Assembly (NCBI RefSeq): GCF_016806835.2
Contig: NZ_CP086111.1
Span: 5,511,471-5,575,470 of the forward strand
Direction of reading: 5' to 3'
Length of the DNA stretch: 64,000 nt
Source: Skermanella rosea
Lineage (GTDB): Bacteria > Pseudomonadota > Alphaproteobacteria > Azospirillales > Azospirillaceae
Numbering within the stretch: position 1 is the stretch's first letter; the number at the start of each line of letters is the position of its first letter. Shown piece after piece: positions 7,285-14,156 of this stretch. Position numbers and translations under genes: made by a program. Below the pieces are notes generated by a model that saw only the letters and a program-made list of their open reading frames with translations, had not been told where the DNA came from and did no database searches.

Positions 7285-8952
7285 ATGCCGCTCGGATCAA
7301 CGACCGGCGGTTCCCGGAAGCACGCCATGCCGATAGCGGATCTCCTGGCTGAGTATTTCACGGTTACCGGCGACGTCATCATGGTGACGGAGACGGAACG
7401 GCTCGACGAACCCGGCCCGGTCATCACCTATGTGAGCCCGGCCTTCGAGCGCCTGACCGGCTATCCCGCCGAGCACGCCGTCGGCCGGTCGCCCCGGTTC
7501 CTCCAGGGTACCGGGACCGACCGGGCCGCGCTGGCGCGCATCCGGGCCGCGCTGGAGCGGCGCCAGACCATCCGGGAGGACCTGCTCAACTACCGTCGCG
7601 ACGGCACCCCCTTCTGGATCGAGCTGGCCATCCACCCGATCACCGACGCGCGGGGCAAGCTCCGGTGCTTCCTGAGCGTGCTGCACGACATCACGGAGCG
7701 CAAGCGCATCGAGGCCATGCTGCGGGATGCCGAGAGCGAGGCCCGGCAGGCCCGCCGGGCGGCCGAGGAGGCCACGCTGGCGCGGTCGCGGTTCTTCGCC
7801 GCGGCGAGCCACGACCTGCGCCAGCCCTACCAGGCGATCCGGCTGCTCCACCAGCTCCTGGCGGACCGGCTGGCCGACCCCGGCCACCGCGCCCTGGCCG
7901 AGAAGCTGGGGGAGGCGATCCAGGCGGGGGAGTCCCTGCTGAACGTCCTGCTCGACGTCTCCGCGCTGGAGGCGGGGACCATCCGGCCGCGGATGGCCGA
8001 CGTGGCGGTGGACGGCCTGCTGACCCGGCTGGCCCACGAGATGGAACCCCAGGCCCAGGCGGTCGGGCTGCGGTTCCGGGTCCGTCCGTGCCGGGGCACG
8101 GTCCGGAGCGATCCGGTGCTGCTCCAGCGGATGATCTCCAACCTTCTGAGCAACGCCCTGCGCTACACCCCGTCCGGCGGCATCCTGCTCGCCTGCCGGC
8201 GGCGGGGCGGCGCCGTCCGCATCGAGGTCTGGGACACCGGGATCGGGATTCCGGAAGAGCATCTCGGCGAGGTGTTCGAGGATTTCATCCAGCTCGGCAA
8301 TCCCGAGCGCGACCGGAGCCGGGGACTGGGGTTGGGGCTTGCGGTGGTCGCCCGCATGGCGAAGCTGCTGGACCATCCGATCGAGGTGCGGTCCGTGCCG
8401 GGACGGGGCTCGATGTTCGCCGTGACGGTGCCGCTGTCGGAAGGCCGCGGCGGCGCCGGGGTCCGCGCCGAGCCCGCCCCGGGGAGGCGGAGCCTGGAAG
8501 GCGGGACCGCCATCGTGATCGAAGACGACCCCATCGTGCTGGAGAGCCTGGCCCTGGTGGTCGAGAGCTGGGGCATGTCGGCGATCCGGATCGCCAGCCT
8601 GGACGAGCTGCCCGCCGCGCTGGCCCCCGTCGCGCACCCTCCCGACCTGATCCTGGCGGACTACCGGCTGCAGGGCGACCGCAGCGGGTCCGACGCCGTG
8701 GAACTGGTGCGGGGCCGCTACGGGACGCCGGTCTCGGCGCTGCTGCTGACCGGGGACACCCATCCCGACCGGCTCCGGGAGGCGGCGGCCCACGGCTACC
8801 GCATCCTGCACAAGCCGATCCATCCCACCGTGCTGCGGGAACAGGTGGAACTGCTGCTCGATCAGGCCACCTTGCCGAGCGGGAGCGCCGCCGCCCCGGC
8901 CGCACCGGCCTCGGCCGCCGCGCGGGCACTGTCCGAATCGACCGAAACATAG
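7285..8952 (+). CDS. hybrid sensor histidine kinase/response regulator with PAS domain
   Basis: This 555-residue protein has no membrane segment, so the sensor is cytoplasmic. An N-terminal PAS domain (about 15-125) contains GRSPRFLQGTGTD, resembling the LOV core but lacking its flavin-binding Cys. A short coiled coil leads to the H-box AASHDLRQPYQAIRLL (phospho-His near 177). Next come the N-box SNLLSNALRYT, the G1 box DTGIGIPEE and the G2 box GLGLGLAVV. A C-terminal receiver (about 410-530) has acidic pair EDD, phosphoacceptor Asp in ILADYRL and Lys in LHKPIHP. ASHDLRQP is typical of hybrid kinases related to NahK. ATG 7327 is a possible alternative start. The 3' end overlaps the convergent patatin gene by 91 bases. 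Confidence 0.9.
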   Translation: MPLGSTTGGSRKHAMPIADLLAEYFTVTGDVIMVTETERLDEPGPVITYVSPAFERLTGYPAEHAVGRSPRFLQGTGTDRAALARIRAALERRQTIREDLLNYRRDGTPFWIELAIHPITDARGKLRCFLSVLHDITERKRIEAMLRDAESEARQARRAAEEATLARSRFFAAASHDLRQPYQAIRLLHQLLADRLADPGHRALAEKLGEAIQAGESLLNVLLDVSALEAGTIRPRMADVAVDGLLTRLAHEMEPQAQAVGLRFRVRPCRGTVRSDPVLLQRMISNLLSNALRYTPSGGILLACRRRGGAVRIEVWDTGIGIPEEHLGEVFEDFIQLGNPERDRSRGLGLGLAVVARMAKLLDHPIEVRSVPGRGSMFAVTVPLSEGRGGAGVRAEPAPGRRSLEGGTAIVIEDDPIVLESLALVVESWGMSAIRIASLDELPAALAPVAHPPDLILADYRLQGDRSGSDAVELVRGRYGTPVSALLLTGDTHPDRLREAAAHGYRILHKPIHPTVLREQVELLLDQATLPSGSAAAPAAPASAAARALSESTET

Positions 8953-9974: not shown

Positions 9975-10204
9975 GTCGATTTCCTTGTGCGTTTCTGGAA
10001 GGGCGGGGGTGTCGTCCGCGACGCCTCTTCGCACTTGCGAGATGGCATCGGCGGGGAGAACAAACAAGGCAGGGGGTCGTTCCATGGGGCTAGCCCCGAC
10101 GCCACGGCGCTCCGACCTTGTTGCTTAAAAATTTATTCAAATATTGGATTAGCCTCGACGGTGTCGCGGCATTCCTCGAAACGACCAAGGACAGGAGACG
10201 CACG

Positions 10205-10450
10205 ATGGAGAACGGTGAGCTGGGGAAGGACACGGGCGACAGGCTCGAGATGGAACGGCGGAAGTTCCTGGGGCGGTGCGGGCGCTTCGCGATCGCCACG
10301 CCGCCGGCCATCACCCTGCTGATGTCGACCAGCCTGACCTCGCAGGCGATCGCCAAGTCCGGCGGCAAGGGCCACCCGGGCAACGGCTACGGCCCGCGCG
10401 GCGGCGCTCCGGGACGGTCCTGGAAGAGCCACGCCGAAAAGTACCGCTGA
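10205..10450 (+). CDS. small leader-like peptide, candidate precursor of a PqqD/HprK-linked cassette
   Basis: The ATG at 10205 has AGGAG about 8 bases upstream, which decides the start against an in-frame codon at 10118. The 81-residue product has a charged head (MENGELGKDTGDRLEMER), then RRKFLGRCGRFAIATPPAIT, a hydrophobic stretch LLMSTSLTS, and a Gly/Lys/Ser/His-rich tail ending KYR. The twin Arg and hydrophobic core resemble a Tat signal or a leader peptide. Small proteins with this RRxFL...TPPA pattern occur next to PqqD-type genes in other alphaproteobacteria. A PqqD-HprK fusion follows 30 bases downstream. A precursor role is inference. The tail has no obvious core-peptide repeat. Confidence 0.7.
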   Translation: MENGELGKDTGDRLEMERRKFLGRCGRFAIATPPAITLLMSTSLTSQAIAKSGGKGHPGNGYGPRGGAPGRSWKSHAEKYR

Positions 10451-10480
10451 AGCCCGCGGGCCTCGTTGGAGATTGCACCG

Positions 10481-11578
10481 GTGCAGGAAAACCGACCGAC
10501 GATCGCCGAAGGCGTCTCGCTCGCCTTCATCGGGGAGCACGGGGTGCTCTTCGACGAGGCCCGGCAGGAACTGTTCCAACTGGACGGCGGGATGGCGTTC
10601 GTCTGGAGCCGCCTGGCCGAGGGAGCGGCGATCGACCGCATCGCCGAAGAGGTGGCCGGCCGCGGCCTGCCCGCCGGGCCGGTGCGGGCCTGCCTGGACC
10701 ATGCCGTCTCGGAATGGACCCGGCTGGGGCTGATCCGGCCCCCGGCGATCCGCCAGCGCCTGGATGTCGGCGGCGCCCGCATCGAGATCCGCTACGCGAC
10801 CGCCGCCCTGGCCGAACACGTCGCGCCGGGCTTCCGGAATTTGGAAATACTGCCCGGACCGGTGGATGACGCGCCGGACAGCCGCCTCGACGTGGGGGAG
10901 GAGGACGGCGCGGTGGTGATCCGCCGCGGCGCGCTCGCCCTGGCGACCTGCCAACCGGACGAGATCATCCCCGCCCTGAGGGGCGCGCTGACCCTGGAGG
11001 CGGTAGGCCTGGGCCGCCACGAGGTGGCGCTGCACGCCGCGACGGTGGCGGCGGACGGCCATGCCCTGCTGCTCAGCGGCTGCCCGGGCGCCGGCAAATC
11101 GACGCTGGCCGTCGGGCTGGCCCAATCCGGTTTCGGCCTCGCCGGGGACGACGTGGCCCTGCTCGGCGCCGACGGGCGGGTGACGGCGCTGCGGTTCGCG
11201 CCGGCGCTCAAACCCGGGTCCTGGCCGCTGCTGGCGGGGATGCGTCCCGACCTGCTCGACCTGCCGGTCCATGTCCGCTACGACAGCCAGCAGGTCCGTT
11301 TCCTGGACGGGGTGCCTTCCGCCGGCGGGGGACCGCTTCCGGTCCGCTGGATCGTCGGCCTCGACCGCCGCGACGGGGCCGGACCGGCGCTCGACCGGCT
11401 CGACCCGCTGGAGACGCTACGCGACCTGATCGGCGGCGCCGCCTCCGCCGACGACCGCCTGGGCACCGGCGCCTTCCAGGCCCTGGCCCGCATGCTGGAC
11501 GGCGCCGGGTGCTATCGGCTCACCTATGCGCGGCTCGACGACGCCGTGGCCCTGCTGGCCGGATTGCGCGGATCATGA
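10481..11578 (+). CDS. PqqD-like domain fused to HprK-related kinase
   Basis: I take the GTG at 10481, which has GGAG 9 bases upstream. TTG 10466 is the other candidate. Residues about 5-88 form a PqqD-like winged-helix peptide-binding domain, with LFDEARQELFQLDGG followed by FVWSRLAEG. Residues from about 185 onward resemble HPr kinase: HAATVAADG, Walker A GCPGAGKST (200-208) and GDDVALLG. The pairing recalls the HPr-rel-A systems, in which PqqD-type chaperones and HprK-like kinases occur together, usually as separate genes. Here they are one polypeptide of 365 residues. The stop overlaps the start of the next gene (ATGA), so translation is coupled. The substrate is unknown; the small upstream protein is the obvious candidate. 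Confidence 0.82.
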   Translation: MQENRPTIAEGVSLAFIGEHGVLFDEARQELFQLDGGMAFVWSRLAEGAAIDRIAEEVAGRGLPAGPVRACLDHAVSEWTRLGLIRPPAIRQRLDVGGARIEIRYATAALAEHVAPGFRNLEILPGPVDDAPDSRLDVGEEDGAVVIRRGALALATCQPDEIIPALRGALTLEAVGLGRHEVALHAATVAADGHALLLSGCPGAGKSTLAVGLAQSGFGLAGDDVALLGADGRVTALRFAPALKPGSWPLLAGMRPDLLDLPVHVRYDSQQVRFLDGVPSAGGGPLPVRWIVGLDRRDGAGPALDRLDPLETLRDLIGGAASADDRLGTGAFQALARMLDGAGCYRLTYARLDDAVALLAGLRGS

Positions 11579-12558
11579 GGATGGCGCCCTCCCATTCCCG
11601 GTTCGACGCCCTGGTCTCCTGCCTGCGGGGACGGCCGCCGGCCGATGCCGACTGGGTCGGCGTGATCGGGGAGGCGAACCGCTACCTTGTCGTTCCCGCC
11701 GTCCGCGCCGCGCTGGCCGGATGGGCCGGGCCGGAGGTTCCGCAGGACGTGCGGGAGTACCTGGACTTCATCCACGGGCGGAACCACGAGCGGAACCTGC
11801 TGCTGCGCGCCCAGGCGGTGGAGGCCGTCGAGGCGCTGAACCGGCACGGCATCCTGCCGACCCTGCTGAAGGGGGCCTGCACGCTGCTGACGGCCGCCGA
11901 GGACCGGCTGGGCGACCGCATCCTGTGCGACCTGGACATCCTCGTGGCGGCGGGCGAGGTTCCGGCGGCGCTGTCCTGCCTGTCGGCGCTCGGCTACGAA
12001 GTCCAGCCCGGCGAGGCGCAGGACCATGCGCCCGCGGCGCTGGCGCGGCGCCGCGATGCCGGCATGATCGACCTGCATGTCCGGCCGCCGGGGCCGAGGA
12101 GGTTCCACCATCCCGACAGGCTCGCCCGGAGCGGGAGCATCCTGGCGATCGGCGAAGCGGGGCAGGCCCTGCTGCCGAGCCCGGAATTCCGGGCGCTGCA
12201 CCTGATCGCGCACGACATGTTCCACGACAAGCTCTACCTGCGCGGCGATTTCGAGCTGAGGCGCCTCGTCGATCTGGCCGGGATCGCCAAGGCCCATCCG
12301 GGCCTCGACTGGGACGAGGTCGCCGCCCTGCTGGACGGACGGGAGGCCCGGCACGCCCTGGAGTCCCAACTGGTGGCGCTGAGATCCCTGTTCGGCGCCG
12401 ACGTCCCCGCCGTCCCGTTCAGCCACCCCGTTCCCCATTTCCAGCACTGGCGCCGCCTGCTACAGGCGCGGCACCCGGGCCTCCGGACCCTGCTGCGCGG
12501 GATCTACCGGTCGTCGCGGCGGCTGGGCGGCGCCGAGACGGCGGTGACCGCGGGCTGA
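11575..12558 (+). CDS. nucleotidyltransferase family protein (NTP_transf_5-like)
   Basis: The start at 11575 overlaps the previous stop as ATGA. The product has 327 residues. The catalytic core LLKGACTLL followed by DRILCDLDILV supplies the acidic pair (Asp-Leu-Asp) of the uncharacterised nucleotidyltransferase family PF14907. A His-rich region LIAHDMFHDKLYL and helical repeats follow. Members sit beside PqqD, lasso-peptide-B-like and HprK-like genes in many genomes. Their reaction is unproven but should transfer a nucleotidyl group. It is the third and last gene of the cassette. No transporter, protease or asparagine-synthetase-like gene follows. Confidence 0.82.
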   Translation: MRMAPSHSRFDALVSCLRGRPPADADWVGVIGEANRYLVVPAVRAALAGWAGPEVPQDVREYLDFIHGRNHERNLLLRAQAVEAVEALNRHGILPTLLKGACTLLTAAEDRLGDRILCDLDILVAAGEVPAALSCLSALGYEVQPGEAQDHAPAALARRRDAGMIDLHVRPPGPRRFHHPDRLARSGSILAIGEAGQALLPSPEFRALHLIAHDMFHDKLYLRGDFELRRLVDLAGIAKAHPGLDWDEVAALLDGREARHALESQLVALRSLFGADVPAVPFSHPVPHFQHWRRLLQARHPGLRTLLRGIYRSSRRLGGAETAVTAG

Positions 12559-12562
12559 GCAC

Positions 12563-12671
12563 CCCCGGGGGAATGTCAGCAAACGTCTACAAGCGTCGCG
12601 GCGCCGAAACCGGTCCGGCGCTTTCCCCCGCGCAGCGATGCCGACATCACATCCCCGGGGGAATGTCAGCA
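12563..12671. repeat. two 19-base direct repeats with CCCCGGGG core
   Basis: The same 19 bases, beginning CCCCGGGGGAATGTCAGCA, occur at 12563-12581 and 12653-12671, exactly 90 bases apart. The next bases are also similar (AACGT against TTCGT). The CCCCGGGG part is self-complementary. The repeats fall in the 300-base gap after the nucleotidyltransferase gene, where I see no open frame worth calling. They could be protein-binding sites or the residue of a duplication. Confidence 0.6.
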
Positions 12672-12816
12672 TTCGTCATGATGTTGGACGGCAATCCCGA
12701 CGGCTCGGGAACATCGACCGTCGGTGCCGACGAGGGATACCGGCGGTATCGCTGGCTTTCTTATTCACGCTGCAAAGATCCGGCACCGGAGTGCGGAGCG
12801 GAGTCTGGCATGAAGT

Positions 12817-12840
12817 CATGAAGGAATACTTTCCTTCATG
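12817..12840. terminator. 10-bp perfect hairpin, possible terminator
   Basis: CATGAAGGAA at 12817-12826 pairs with TTCCTTCATG at 12831-12840 across a TACT loop. It lies about 20 bases past the stop of the minus-strand gene ending at 12862 and 260 bases past the plus-strand cassette. There is no T-run on either strand, so intrinsic termination would be weak. An mRNA-stabilising hairpin is equally possible. Confidence 0.4.
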
Positions 12841-12861
12841 CGGAAAGATGTGAGGCGTCCG

Positions 12862-13993
12862 TCAAGACGCCTTGATGCGCTCGATGATCCAGGACCACAC
12901 GGCGAGGAGCTGGGCCATGACGGCGGGATCGCCCAGTTGCTTCAGCGAGACGCCGGGTTCCCCCTTGATGGCGCTCGCTGTCATCTGCATGCCGGGAATC
13001 AGCTTGAAGCGGTCCAGCAGTTCCTGGCGCAGTTCCTCGCTGTCGAAGGGAGGTTTTTCCTTGAGCCAGGCGAGGCTGGTGGCGGCCCGGTCGTGTGGTT
13101 TCAGGAAGACGGGGTAATATGTGCGCTGGCCATGGTTCACGCGCATCAGGACGGAGGGGTCGTTGGCGGTCGTCGTGGTGACATCGTCGGCATGCTCCAC
13201 CATCCAGTCCACCAGGAGGCGCGCGGTCCGGACATGCTCGTCGCCATGGCGGACCCGCTGCCGGTCGAACCATTCCTCCACCGAAATCTTCCGGATGACG
13301 TCCTTGCCCTTGCGCCGCTGCGCCTCCGGCGGTGCGTCCGACGACGCGCGGGACGAGGGTGCGCATGCCCTCCGCGACGAACTGCCGGATTTCGAGTGCC
13401 AGCACCTCGGCCGGATTCATCTGGACGTTCAGGAATTCCACGATGCGCTGGAGTTCCGGATGGATCTCGTCGGCGATGAAGACCATGCGGATACGGCCGG
13501 CACGGAGATTGGCGTCGGCCTGCCGCCAGAAGGCCTCCGGGTCGGCATCGGCCCCGAGAAAGCGGGCGAGGATGCCGGCGGCCTCTTCCTCCGGCTGCTG
13601 GGCAGCGCAGGTCCGCTCGAACTGGAGCTTCAGCTCGTCCACCGGCCAATAGACGACTCCATTGGCGGCATAGTCCAGCATCTGGGCGACCACTTCCCGC
13701 CGGCTCCGGGTGTCGGTGGCGCGCTTTACCTCGACCAGCGTCGGCACGGCGTCCTGGTCGATGAACAGGTGGTCGAGCGACCAACGTCCTTCACCGCCGT
13801 CTTCGCCCGGCACCGCCTGCTCGCGCGCGATGAGAAGCCAGCGCCGCGGGTGGTCGGGGTCGACCTGATCGCCGGCGATGAGGCTGGGGTGTGTAGCCAG
13901 CAGGCGCTGGAGCAGATCTTCGGTAGCGTAGGGAGCCGCCCGCATTTCAGTGAGGCCGCCGTCGTCCCGGACGAGATAGATGCCGTTGCCCAT
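12862..13993 (-). pseudogene. PD-(D/E)XK nuclease-like protein, broken by one frameshift
   Basis: The first part reads from ATG 13993 (MGNGIYLVRDDGG) to about 13330. The rest continues in another frame to the stop at 12862 (EEWFDRQRVRHGDEHVRT to IIERIKAS). The joint lies near RVVGRTA/EAQRRKGKDVIRK. Together they would make about 375 residues. The N-terminal half holds LDHLFIDQDAVPTLVEVKR, in which D, E and VEVKR match a PD-(D/E)XK nuclease core. The function of the family is unproven. Either the gene is dead or one base was lost or gained in sequencing. Both halves keep good coding character, so decay would be recent. Confidence 0.7.
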
Positions 13994-14156
13994 GGCGTCT
14001 TGTATTCTTTTGTCGTGGCTGCGCAGCCGACCGAAGTGACCGGCCGCGCAACATGACCCATAAGGCGTTAAGATTCCGCCGATACCGCGGTGGACAACCG
14101 TCGGCGGCGGTTCCAACCTTCCTGCCTAGAAGCCGCTACCGAACAGGAGCCCGGAC

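Follow-up and report, generated by a model that had tools for sequence, protein, structure and literature searches.

The window analyzed in this study, a stretch of 64,000 nucleotides of Skermanella rosea (contig NZ_CP086111.1, positions 5,511,471 to 5,575,470), carries a cassette of three genes. They encode a small protein of 81 residues, a kinase in which a PqqD domain, of the kind known as the recognition element (RRE) of ribosomally synthesized and post-translationally modified peptides (RiPPs), is fused to an HprK-like domain, and a nucleotidyltransferase of the family PF14907, of which the gene overlaps that of the kinase. The features on which the following analyses are based are:

10194..10197, + strand: GGAG, putative ribosome-binding sequence 7 bases before the ATG of the small gene; kept in the same-genus relatives G001 and G002
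10205..10450, + strand: open reading frame (ORF) for 81 residues with an ATG start, from ORF calls and alignment; precursor-like protein with a signal of the twin-arginine translocation (Tat) type (aa 1-50) and a short mature tail (aa 51-81)
10256..10270, + strand: twin-arginine motif RRKFL (aa 18-22); R18, R19, F21 and L22 are invariant in 12 aligned homologues
10301..10306, + strand: prolines P33-P34 (PP motif) of the leader, which may be bound by the RRE; unchanged in all 12 homologues aligned, with fixed spacing to Ser52
10358..10360, + strand: Ser52, the serine predicted to be modified, located two residues past the cleavage-like site AIA; conserved spacing
10466..11578, + strand: PqqD/RRE-HprK fusion kinase, starting at TTG 10466 or GTG 10481
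10511..10729, + strand: PqqD/RRE domain (aa about 16-88), from family matches and superposition of the model on TbiB1 and TfuB1
11015..11566, + strand: HprK-like kinase domain (aa 184-367) with H190, K211, D228 and D229, from the HprK_rel_A match (75.4 bits) and conserved columns
11078..11104, + strand: Walker A motif GCPGAGKST (aa 205-213); G208, G210 and K211 are invariant in 39 homologues
11575..12558, + strand: PF14907 nucleotidyltransferase, from the Pfam match; ATGA overlap with the kinase gene

Four genomes of the same genus (G001 to G004) were searched for the cassette. All three genes were found in the same order in G001 and G002, both of which possess the full-length fusion; no kinase match was detected in G003, and a weak P-loop match was the only one in G004. 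Between any two of the three same-genus copies, 3-5 synonymous and 0-1 nonsynonymous codon changes were counted in the 37 codons from RR to SGG, and the tail changes freely. Because the codon differences in the leader are mostly synonymous, we regard the small ORF as more than a chance reading frame. The fusion gene can begin at TTG 10466 (a gap of 15 bases from the small ORF) or at GTG 10481 (a gap of 30 bases); the former codon is absent from both G001 and G002, and the latter is present in G002 only. The gap of 30 bases given in the initial annotation corresponds to the GTG start.

The small protein reads MENGELGKDTGDRLEMERRKFLGRCGRFAIATPPAITLLMSTSLTSQAIAKSGG, followed by a hydrophilic tail of 27 residues. 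Judged from the sequence and the alignment, its leader is a Tat-type signal, in which the features of a Tat substrate, namely a twin-arginine motif (RRKFL), a moderately hydrophobic stretch and an AxA site (AIA), are all present. An alignment-led scan of GTDB genomes recovered 131 relatives; the analysis used 80 of them (78 loci in 54 genomes) and left out the other 51. The conserved leader occurs in Sinorhizobium, Bradyrhizobium, Rhodopseudomonas, Tardiphaga, Reyranella, Vineibacter, Tistlia, Dongia and others, with the consensus RRxFLxxCGKFAVVTPPAxTxLLSTSLxSxAIAxSGG across the family. The leaders are conserved and the tails variable, the latter including GNNGxGNGGGDGxPG, His-rich, Lys-Gly-rich, KPKP and WLERxxxKFF types. 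With a profile of four members, matches at E <= 0.01 were obtained in 23 of the 385 genomes of the class, and the leader profile matched just 12 of the 385 (E <= 1e-4), by which a generic Tat signal was ruled out as the explanation of the family. The small protein of the window has no Pfam or NCBIfam match up to E 1, and the family is without a model in either database. Scans of 12 members gave weak single matches, namely the Cxxx-repeat radical S-adenosylmethionine (SAM) target in three (best E 0.014), microcin B17 (0.026), peptidylprolyl isomerase (0.0043) and MoCoBD_1 (0.00085) in one each, and a few weaker ones. A search of viral contigs with one peptide found no homologue.

Some relatives differ in the part behind the leader. 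Longer peptide paralogues with Ser/Gly-rich tails were seen at L094 (6831-7316), L139 (9971-10483) and L153 (10693-11130), and they have in common an SFFDND or SIFDND stretch after the leader. At L103 (7427-8338; genome G112), three small Tat-like proteins with Cys-rich tails (e.g., CEPCSTCTPCD) adjoin one another, and the fusion kinase is encoded elsewhere in the genome.

Both domains of the fusion kinase were identified more clearly from its family than from the window protein. The latter alone matched PqqD with an E-value of 0.034 and Hpr_kinase_C with 0.00067, both below the Pfam cut-offs, and its 75.4 bits with HprK_rel_A (TIGR04352) compare with a curated cut-off of 200. At E <= 0.01, 26 of the 39 fusion homologues have a PqqD match (best 2.1e-10) and 30 an Hpr_kinase_C match. 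Against the solved structures, the family profile matched the RREs of lasso peptide systems, TbiB1 (8.7e-8), TfuB1 (5e-5) and chain 9x90_B (PbaB1; 6.2e-4), as well as HPr kinases. In the AlphaFold2 model, the predicted local distance difference test score (pLDDT) is >= 90 across most of the kinase; the modelled N-terminus superposes on TbiB1 and TfuB1 (root-mean-square deviation of 1.3-1.4 A over 79-84 columns), and the modelled C-terminus is PEPCK/HprK-like. Together with the intact GCPGAGKST, these matches bear out the PqqD-HprK fusion recognized in the initial annotation. H190, K211 and D228 are invariant in the 39 homologues, and D229 is conserved in at least 90% of them. By comparison, these residues probably correspond to the His-Lys-Asp-Asp set described as essential in lasso kinases (PMC9266682). 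A homologue search of genome_contigs with the kinase alone gave no match.

The overlapping gene was likewise correctly assigned to PF14907 in the initial annotation (102.9 bits against a cut-off of 31.2; ATGA overlap). In 34 homologues, K99, D119 and D121 are invariant and G100, R115 and D166 are conserved in at least 90%. The model (pLDDT 89) adopts a nucleotidyltransferase-type fold nearest to MenT1 and ANT(2'')-Ia, with FKRP as a weaker match (E about 0.03 at best); the profile found no match among the sequences of solved structures. As the catalytic residues are intact in both, the kinase and the nucleotidyltransferase look active.

The peptide and the kinase travel together. The initial annotation had set beforehand, as a test, the prospect that homologues of the small protein occur mostly without the fusion gene; instead, the kinase was found in 52 of the 54 genomes with the peptide family, at the same locus in 39 and elsewhere, at full length, in 13. 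For 13 of the 15 genomes lacking the kinase at the locus, a search of the entire genome with the kinase profile was made, and it yielded a full-length fusion match in every one of the 13 (E 1.2e-103 or better). The kinases at the 39 loci are mostly single ORFs matched over both domains (37 loci); the domains lie in adjoining ORFs at L134, and only the kinase part was matched at L177. Among the 78 loci, both enzymes were found at 38, the kinase only at one (L135) and neither at 39, some of which are on short contigs. The peptide gene lies <=700 bases from the enzymes at 37 of the 38 loci with both; the remaining one is L157, with the peptide 1.6 kb away and the enzymes on opposite strands. Four arrangements of the peptide gene were observed at these 38 loci: 5' on the opposite strand (14), 3' on the same strand (12), 3' on the opposite strand (8) and 5' on the same strand (4). 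When the neighbors at 36 cassette loci (26 groups) were clustered, no other gene family recurred in >6 of the groups; an ABC-transporter-like component recurred in 6, several kb from the cassette.

The association was also examined in the 385 genomes of the class, in which the peptide (E <= 1e-4) was detected in 12, the fusion (E <= 1e-60, a cut-off placed at the gap observed) in 10 and both in 9 (Fisher p 4.7e-15). Adding three weaker full- or part-length fusion matches (G259, G228 and G038; none with the peptide) left 9 genomes common to 13 and 12 (p 3.3e-13). Strict peptide matches were found in 9 genomes, 7 of which have the fusion (p 1.8e-11), and 5 genomes were common to 8 and 7 when the genus of the window was excluded (p 1.7e-8). 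Because the peptide and kinase profiles contain rows found beside each other, we also give the ranking by TIGR04352, which is blind to the peptide: 9 of the 10 fusion genomes rank directly below the true members of that family, and G400 follows four places later. In a kinase-led sample of the phylum (369 genomes), 12 loci were found at E <= 1e-40, and the family leader adjoins the kinase in 8 of them (G000, G575, G603, G619, G663, G714, G716 and G457, the last being weak at 3.4e-5); no family leader was found within the stretch examined at G391, G755, G646 and G573. G457, G714 and G716 are outside the class; only the kinase part was matched in G457, and the match in G716 contains a stop. In G155, which possesses the peptide without the fusion, separate HprK, PqqD-like and nucleotidyltransferase ORFs stand in a row (L253, 2-2304), and this set is a split form of the fusion.

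One serine stands at a fixed place in the family. In 74 of the 78 non-redundant peptides, a Ser occupies position +18 from the second proline of PP (or from the AP proline where PP is missing), and a Ser lies <=4 residues after a loosely AxA-like motif in all 78. The residues flanking it are less conserved (31% and 79%), and Ser accounts for <=13% of each of the nine columns that follow, vs 95% at +18. We propose the corresponding Ser52 as the acceptor because of this near-invariant spacing and because the related kinase of linear polyphosphorylated peptides (LPPs; Popov et al., 2026; PMC13381572) acts on residue 3 of the core, where it adds up to four phosphates and where S3A abolishes phosphorylation.

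We regard it as probable that the three genes constitute a small system of peptide maturation and export, in which Ser52 is phosphorylated, then decorated, and the product is exported by Tat. The 81-residue protein would be the precursor, its conserved N-terminal half acting at once as Tat export signal and as leader recognized by the RRE. The fused PqqD domain would bind this leader, the HprK domain would phosphorylate Ser52 beside the signal-cleavage site, possibly more than once, and the PF14907 enzyme would then add a further group to the phosphate, perhaps a nucleotidyl, sugar or sugar-phosphate unit. The modified peptide would leave through the general Tat system and be cleaved at AIA by signal peptidase I; TatC and signal peptidase I are both encoded in the genome. 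Tat handles finished cargo, and modification in the cytoplasm before export is therefore plausible. No dedicated protease or exporter would be needed, since the general Tat system and the general signal peptidase can serve. The data show the three genes, the peptide family, its linkage with the enzymes, the intact catalytic residues, the RRE fold and the fixed serine; we infer the binding of the leader, the chemistry, its site and order, the export by Tat and the biological role. The anatomy of a RiPP pathway, comprising a ribosomal precursor with a leader, an RRE and pathway enzymes, fits by sequence and fold, with the leader placed at low pLDDT by the model. The initial annotation had proposed a peptide-modification system with the chemistry of a kinase and a nucleotidyltransferase, which is reasonable, but it missed the Tat-type signal and the near-invariant serine.

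Several observations count against this proposal. The contact between the small protein and the PqqD domain that the initial annotation expected gained nothing from the one model made, a read-through of peptide and kinase as one chain with a six-residue linker, unpaired rows and no contact map. Docking of the leader on the RRE is without support from it because residues 22-94, including most of the leader, have a pLDDT of <50; a model of this kind is a weak test, yet its outcome is negative. The mixed alignment of kinases and peptides (A7) was limited to the rows that aligned correctly, namely 29 of the 35 kinases and 12 of the 34 peptides; an earlier one (A6) was dropped, as the N-termini of the kinases had been placed under the peptide. 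Known RRE ligands carry an aromatic [Y/W]xxP motif that is absent from the leader, and the PP motif of the leader, [VA]TPPx[VIM], resembles [Y/W]xxPx[L/V/I/F/A] only loosely. RRxFL and AxA belong to Tat signals in any case, and part of the conservation in the leader therefore reflects export rather than recognition. Further serines of the leader are conserved among the 78 peptides, at +7 (90%), +12 (81%) and +9 (74%). As to the linkage, three of the 12 class genomes with the peptide (G112, G265 and G325) are weak, divergent matches; the complete genome G147 has the peptide and neither the fusion kinase nor the nucleotidyltransferase; G344 has the kinase with no peptide match, as do G259 and G228 with their weaker full-length fusion matches; and, of the 13 genomes in which the peptide is not linked to the kinase, none was found to have a family peptide within 1.5 kb on either side of the kinase.

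Some of these observations would suit an ordinary Tat-exported protein, with the RRE-kinase and the nucleotidyltransferase modifying something else and the joint travel being regulatory or historical. The twin arginines, the hydrophobic stretch and AxA are typical of any Tat signal, neither enzyme is in the stretch at half of the loci (39 of 78), and G147 has the peptide alone. We nevertheless consider this explanation unlikely: all 13 tested genomes with an unlinked peptide carry the fusion elsewhere, adjacency is kept in four different arrangements, the restriction of the leader profile to 12 of the 385 class genomes speaks against a generic Tat signal, and an RRE domain predicts a peptide substrate. 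If the peptide is the substrate, the residue modified could still be a Ser, Thr or Tyr of the variable tail, the C-terminus, as in the paeninodin kinases, or a different leader serine, instead of Ser52. The characterized lasso kinases modify a C-terminal Ser (PMC9266682), many tails contain Ser, and the leader serines at +7, +9 and +12 are conserved as well. This appears improbable to us, given that the conserved Ser is the last one in 13 of the 78 peptides, that the frequency of Ser drops sharply in the nine columns after +18, and that the LPP kinase acts at core Ser3 (PMC13381572).

The second enzyme could, on a third account, use a nucleotide donor to transfer a sugar-phosphate or alditol-phosphate, with the peptide being a primer or anchor for a cell-surface polysaccharide. 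FKRP, which the nucleotidyltransferase model weakly resembles, was solved with CDP-ribitol; PsmN installs hexoses on phospho-Ser (PMC9266682); LPP loci lie in capsule loci (PMC13381572); and 4 of the 26 locus groups have common neighbors that, from sequence alone, read as putative polysaccharide genes. On the other hand, the best fold matches are MenT1 and ANT(2'')-Ia, and no recognized family of polysaccharide synthesis was found among 14 neighbor ORFs of the window, 4 of which have no Pfam match. We give this account very little credence.

The decoration of Ser52 followed by Tat export, if correct, would extend phosphate-modified linear peptides beyond Bacillota to rhizobia (Sinorhizobium and Bradyrhizobium) and other Pseudomonadota, provide the orphan HprK-like and PF14907 genes of these genomes with a substrate, connect the Tat pathway with leader recognition of the RiPP kind and account for a family of small Tat-signal proteins whose tails are unusually rich in Gly/Asn, His or Lys. 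The location of a small protein with an export signal beside these two enzymes suggests that rhizobia and other bacteria may modify small proteins chemically before export. The broader notion that Pseudomonadota possess a widespread class of secreted peptides with phosphate modifications, of which the Tat signal doubles as the RRE leader and thereby couples modification of the cleavage-site serine to export, with PF14907 enzymes extending the phosphate, is one we put forward tentatively, as possible rather than likely.

The 14 neighbor ORFs scanned in the window include patatin-like, hybrid histidine kinase, cupin, major facilitator superfamily transporter and sigma factor genes, as well as matches to peptidase families S33 and M48 several kb from the cassette, and show no evident link to the three cassette genes. 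At 7285-8952, a PAS hybrid histidine kinase has a C-terminal part like NahK/ErcS (352 bits, below the cut-off of 400). On the - strand, a gene reads in two frames (12836-14116 and 12862-13281), the first ORF being without a Pfam or NCBIfam match; at the same-genus locus L106, by frames worked out by hand, the corresponding pieces begin in a single frame, and the gene at 12836-14116 may be frameshifted or mis-sequenced. Just 3' of the cassette lies a direct repeat of 28 bases (12560-12587 and 12650-12677; 89% identical, 90 bases apart), of which the core, CCCCGGGGGAATGTCAGCA, has no other occurrence in the window.

A search of titles and abstract openings found no account of such a system of PqqD-HprK, nucleotidyltransferase and Tat peptide. 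The wording of the initial annotation, "not described as such", holds to this extent but has to be qualified, as the published LPP system is closely parallel in function (PMC13381572; see below). Among the known systems, the tailoring of the lasso peptides paeninodin and pseudomycoidin (PadeK/ThcoK, PsmK and PsmN) shares an HprK-like kinase with His-Lys-Asp-Asp, a nucleotidyltransferase partner and an RRE with the cassette, whereas the target there is a C-terminal Ser and the one proposed here is a Ser beside the leader. Neither a macrolactam synthetase/cyclase nor a B2 leader protease was found among the 14 neighbor ORFs, and no third gene exceeds 6 of the 26 groups; a lasso peptide was ruled out as the macrolactam synthetase and the B2 protease are missing among these ORFs. 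SynChlorMet resembles the cassette in that the NCBIfam models of ScmC and ScmD match 26 and 14 of the 39 fusion kinases, respectively (E <= 0.01). The SynChlorMet cassette has radical SAM enzymes, and none was found among the 14 neighbor ORFs.

The HPr-rel-A system (TIGR04352/TIGR04353) likewise comprises an HprK-like kinase, a PqqD-family partner and a PF14907-like nucleotidyltransferase. A true HPr-rel-A system was ruled out, as the window kinase falls below the cut-off of TIGR04352 (75.4 bits vs 200) and its PqqD domain is fused, whereas PqqD is a separate protein (TIGR04353) there; TIGR04353 matches 7 of the 39 fusion family members and is not among the matches of the window protein. Ten true HPr-rel-A loci (L188-L197) were taken by kinase score, and in 8 of them a protein next to the set has an export signal of the form RR...AP...AxA, as judged by eye among pattern matches with no shuffled control. 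Six of the 8 are >170 aa as ORFs, in difference from the small peptide, and their mature parts are unrelated. These sequences suggest that sets of RRE, HprK and PF14907 generally act on exported proteins.

The closest parallel is provided by the LPPs, which are described as restricted to Bacillota (PMC13381572). Both systems have a precursor with a conserved leader and a variable C-terminus, and the combination of an RRE, an HprK-like kinase and a nucleoside triphosphate transferase known from LPP is present in the window. The LPP leader carries the motif YxxPxVLxHQxIxFETxxS, which was not found in the Tat-type leader of the window family, and the RRE is discrete in LPP but fused to the kinase here. 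LPP has its own peptidase, the SpI-like LppS, and an MsbA-like exporter; no such dedicated neighbor recurs at the 36 cassette loci, and neither a signal peptidase nor an ABC exporter was found among the 14 neighbor ORFs. A term search of PMC13381572 found no mention of proteobacteria, Pseudomonadota or twin-arginine. Judged by the features given in that paper, the cassette is no LPP, albeit it would work like one: the serine phosphorylated in LPP is residue 3 of the core, beside the leader cleavage site, and the predicted counterpart in the Pseudomonadota cassette is Ser52.

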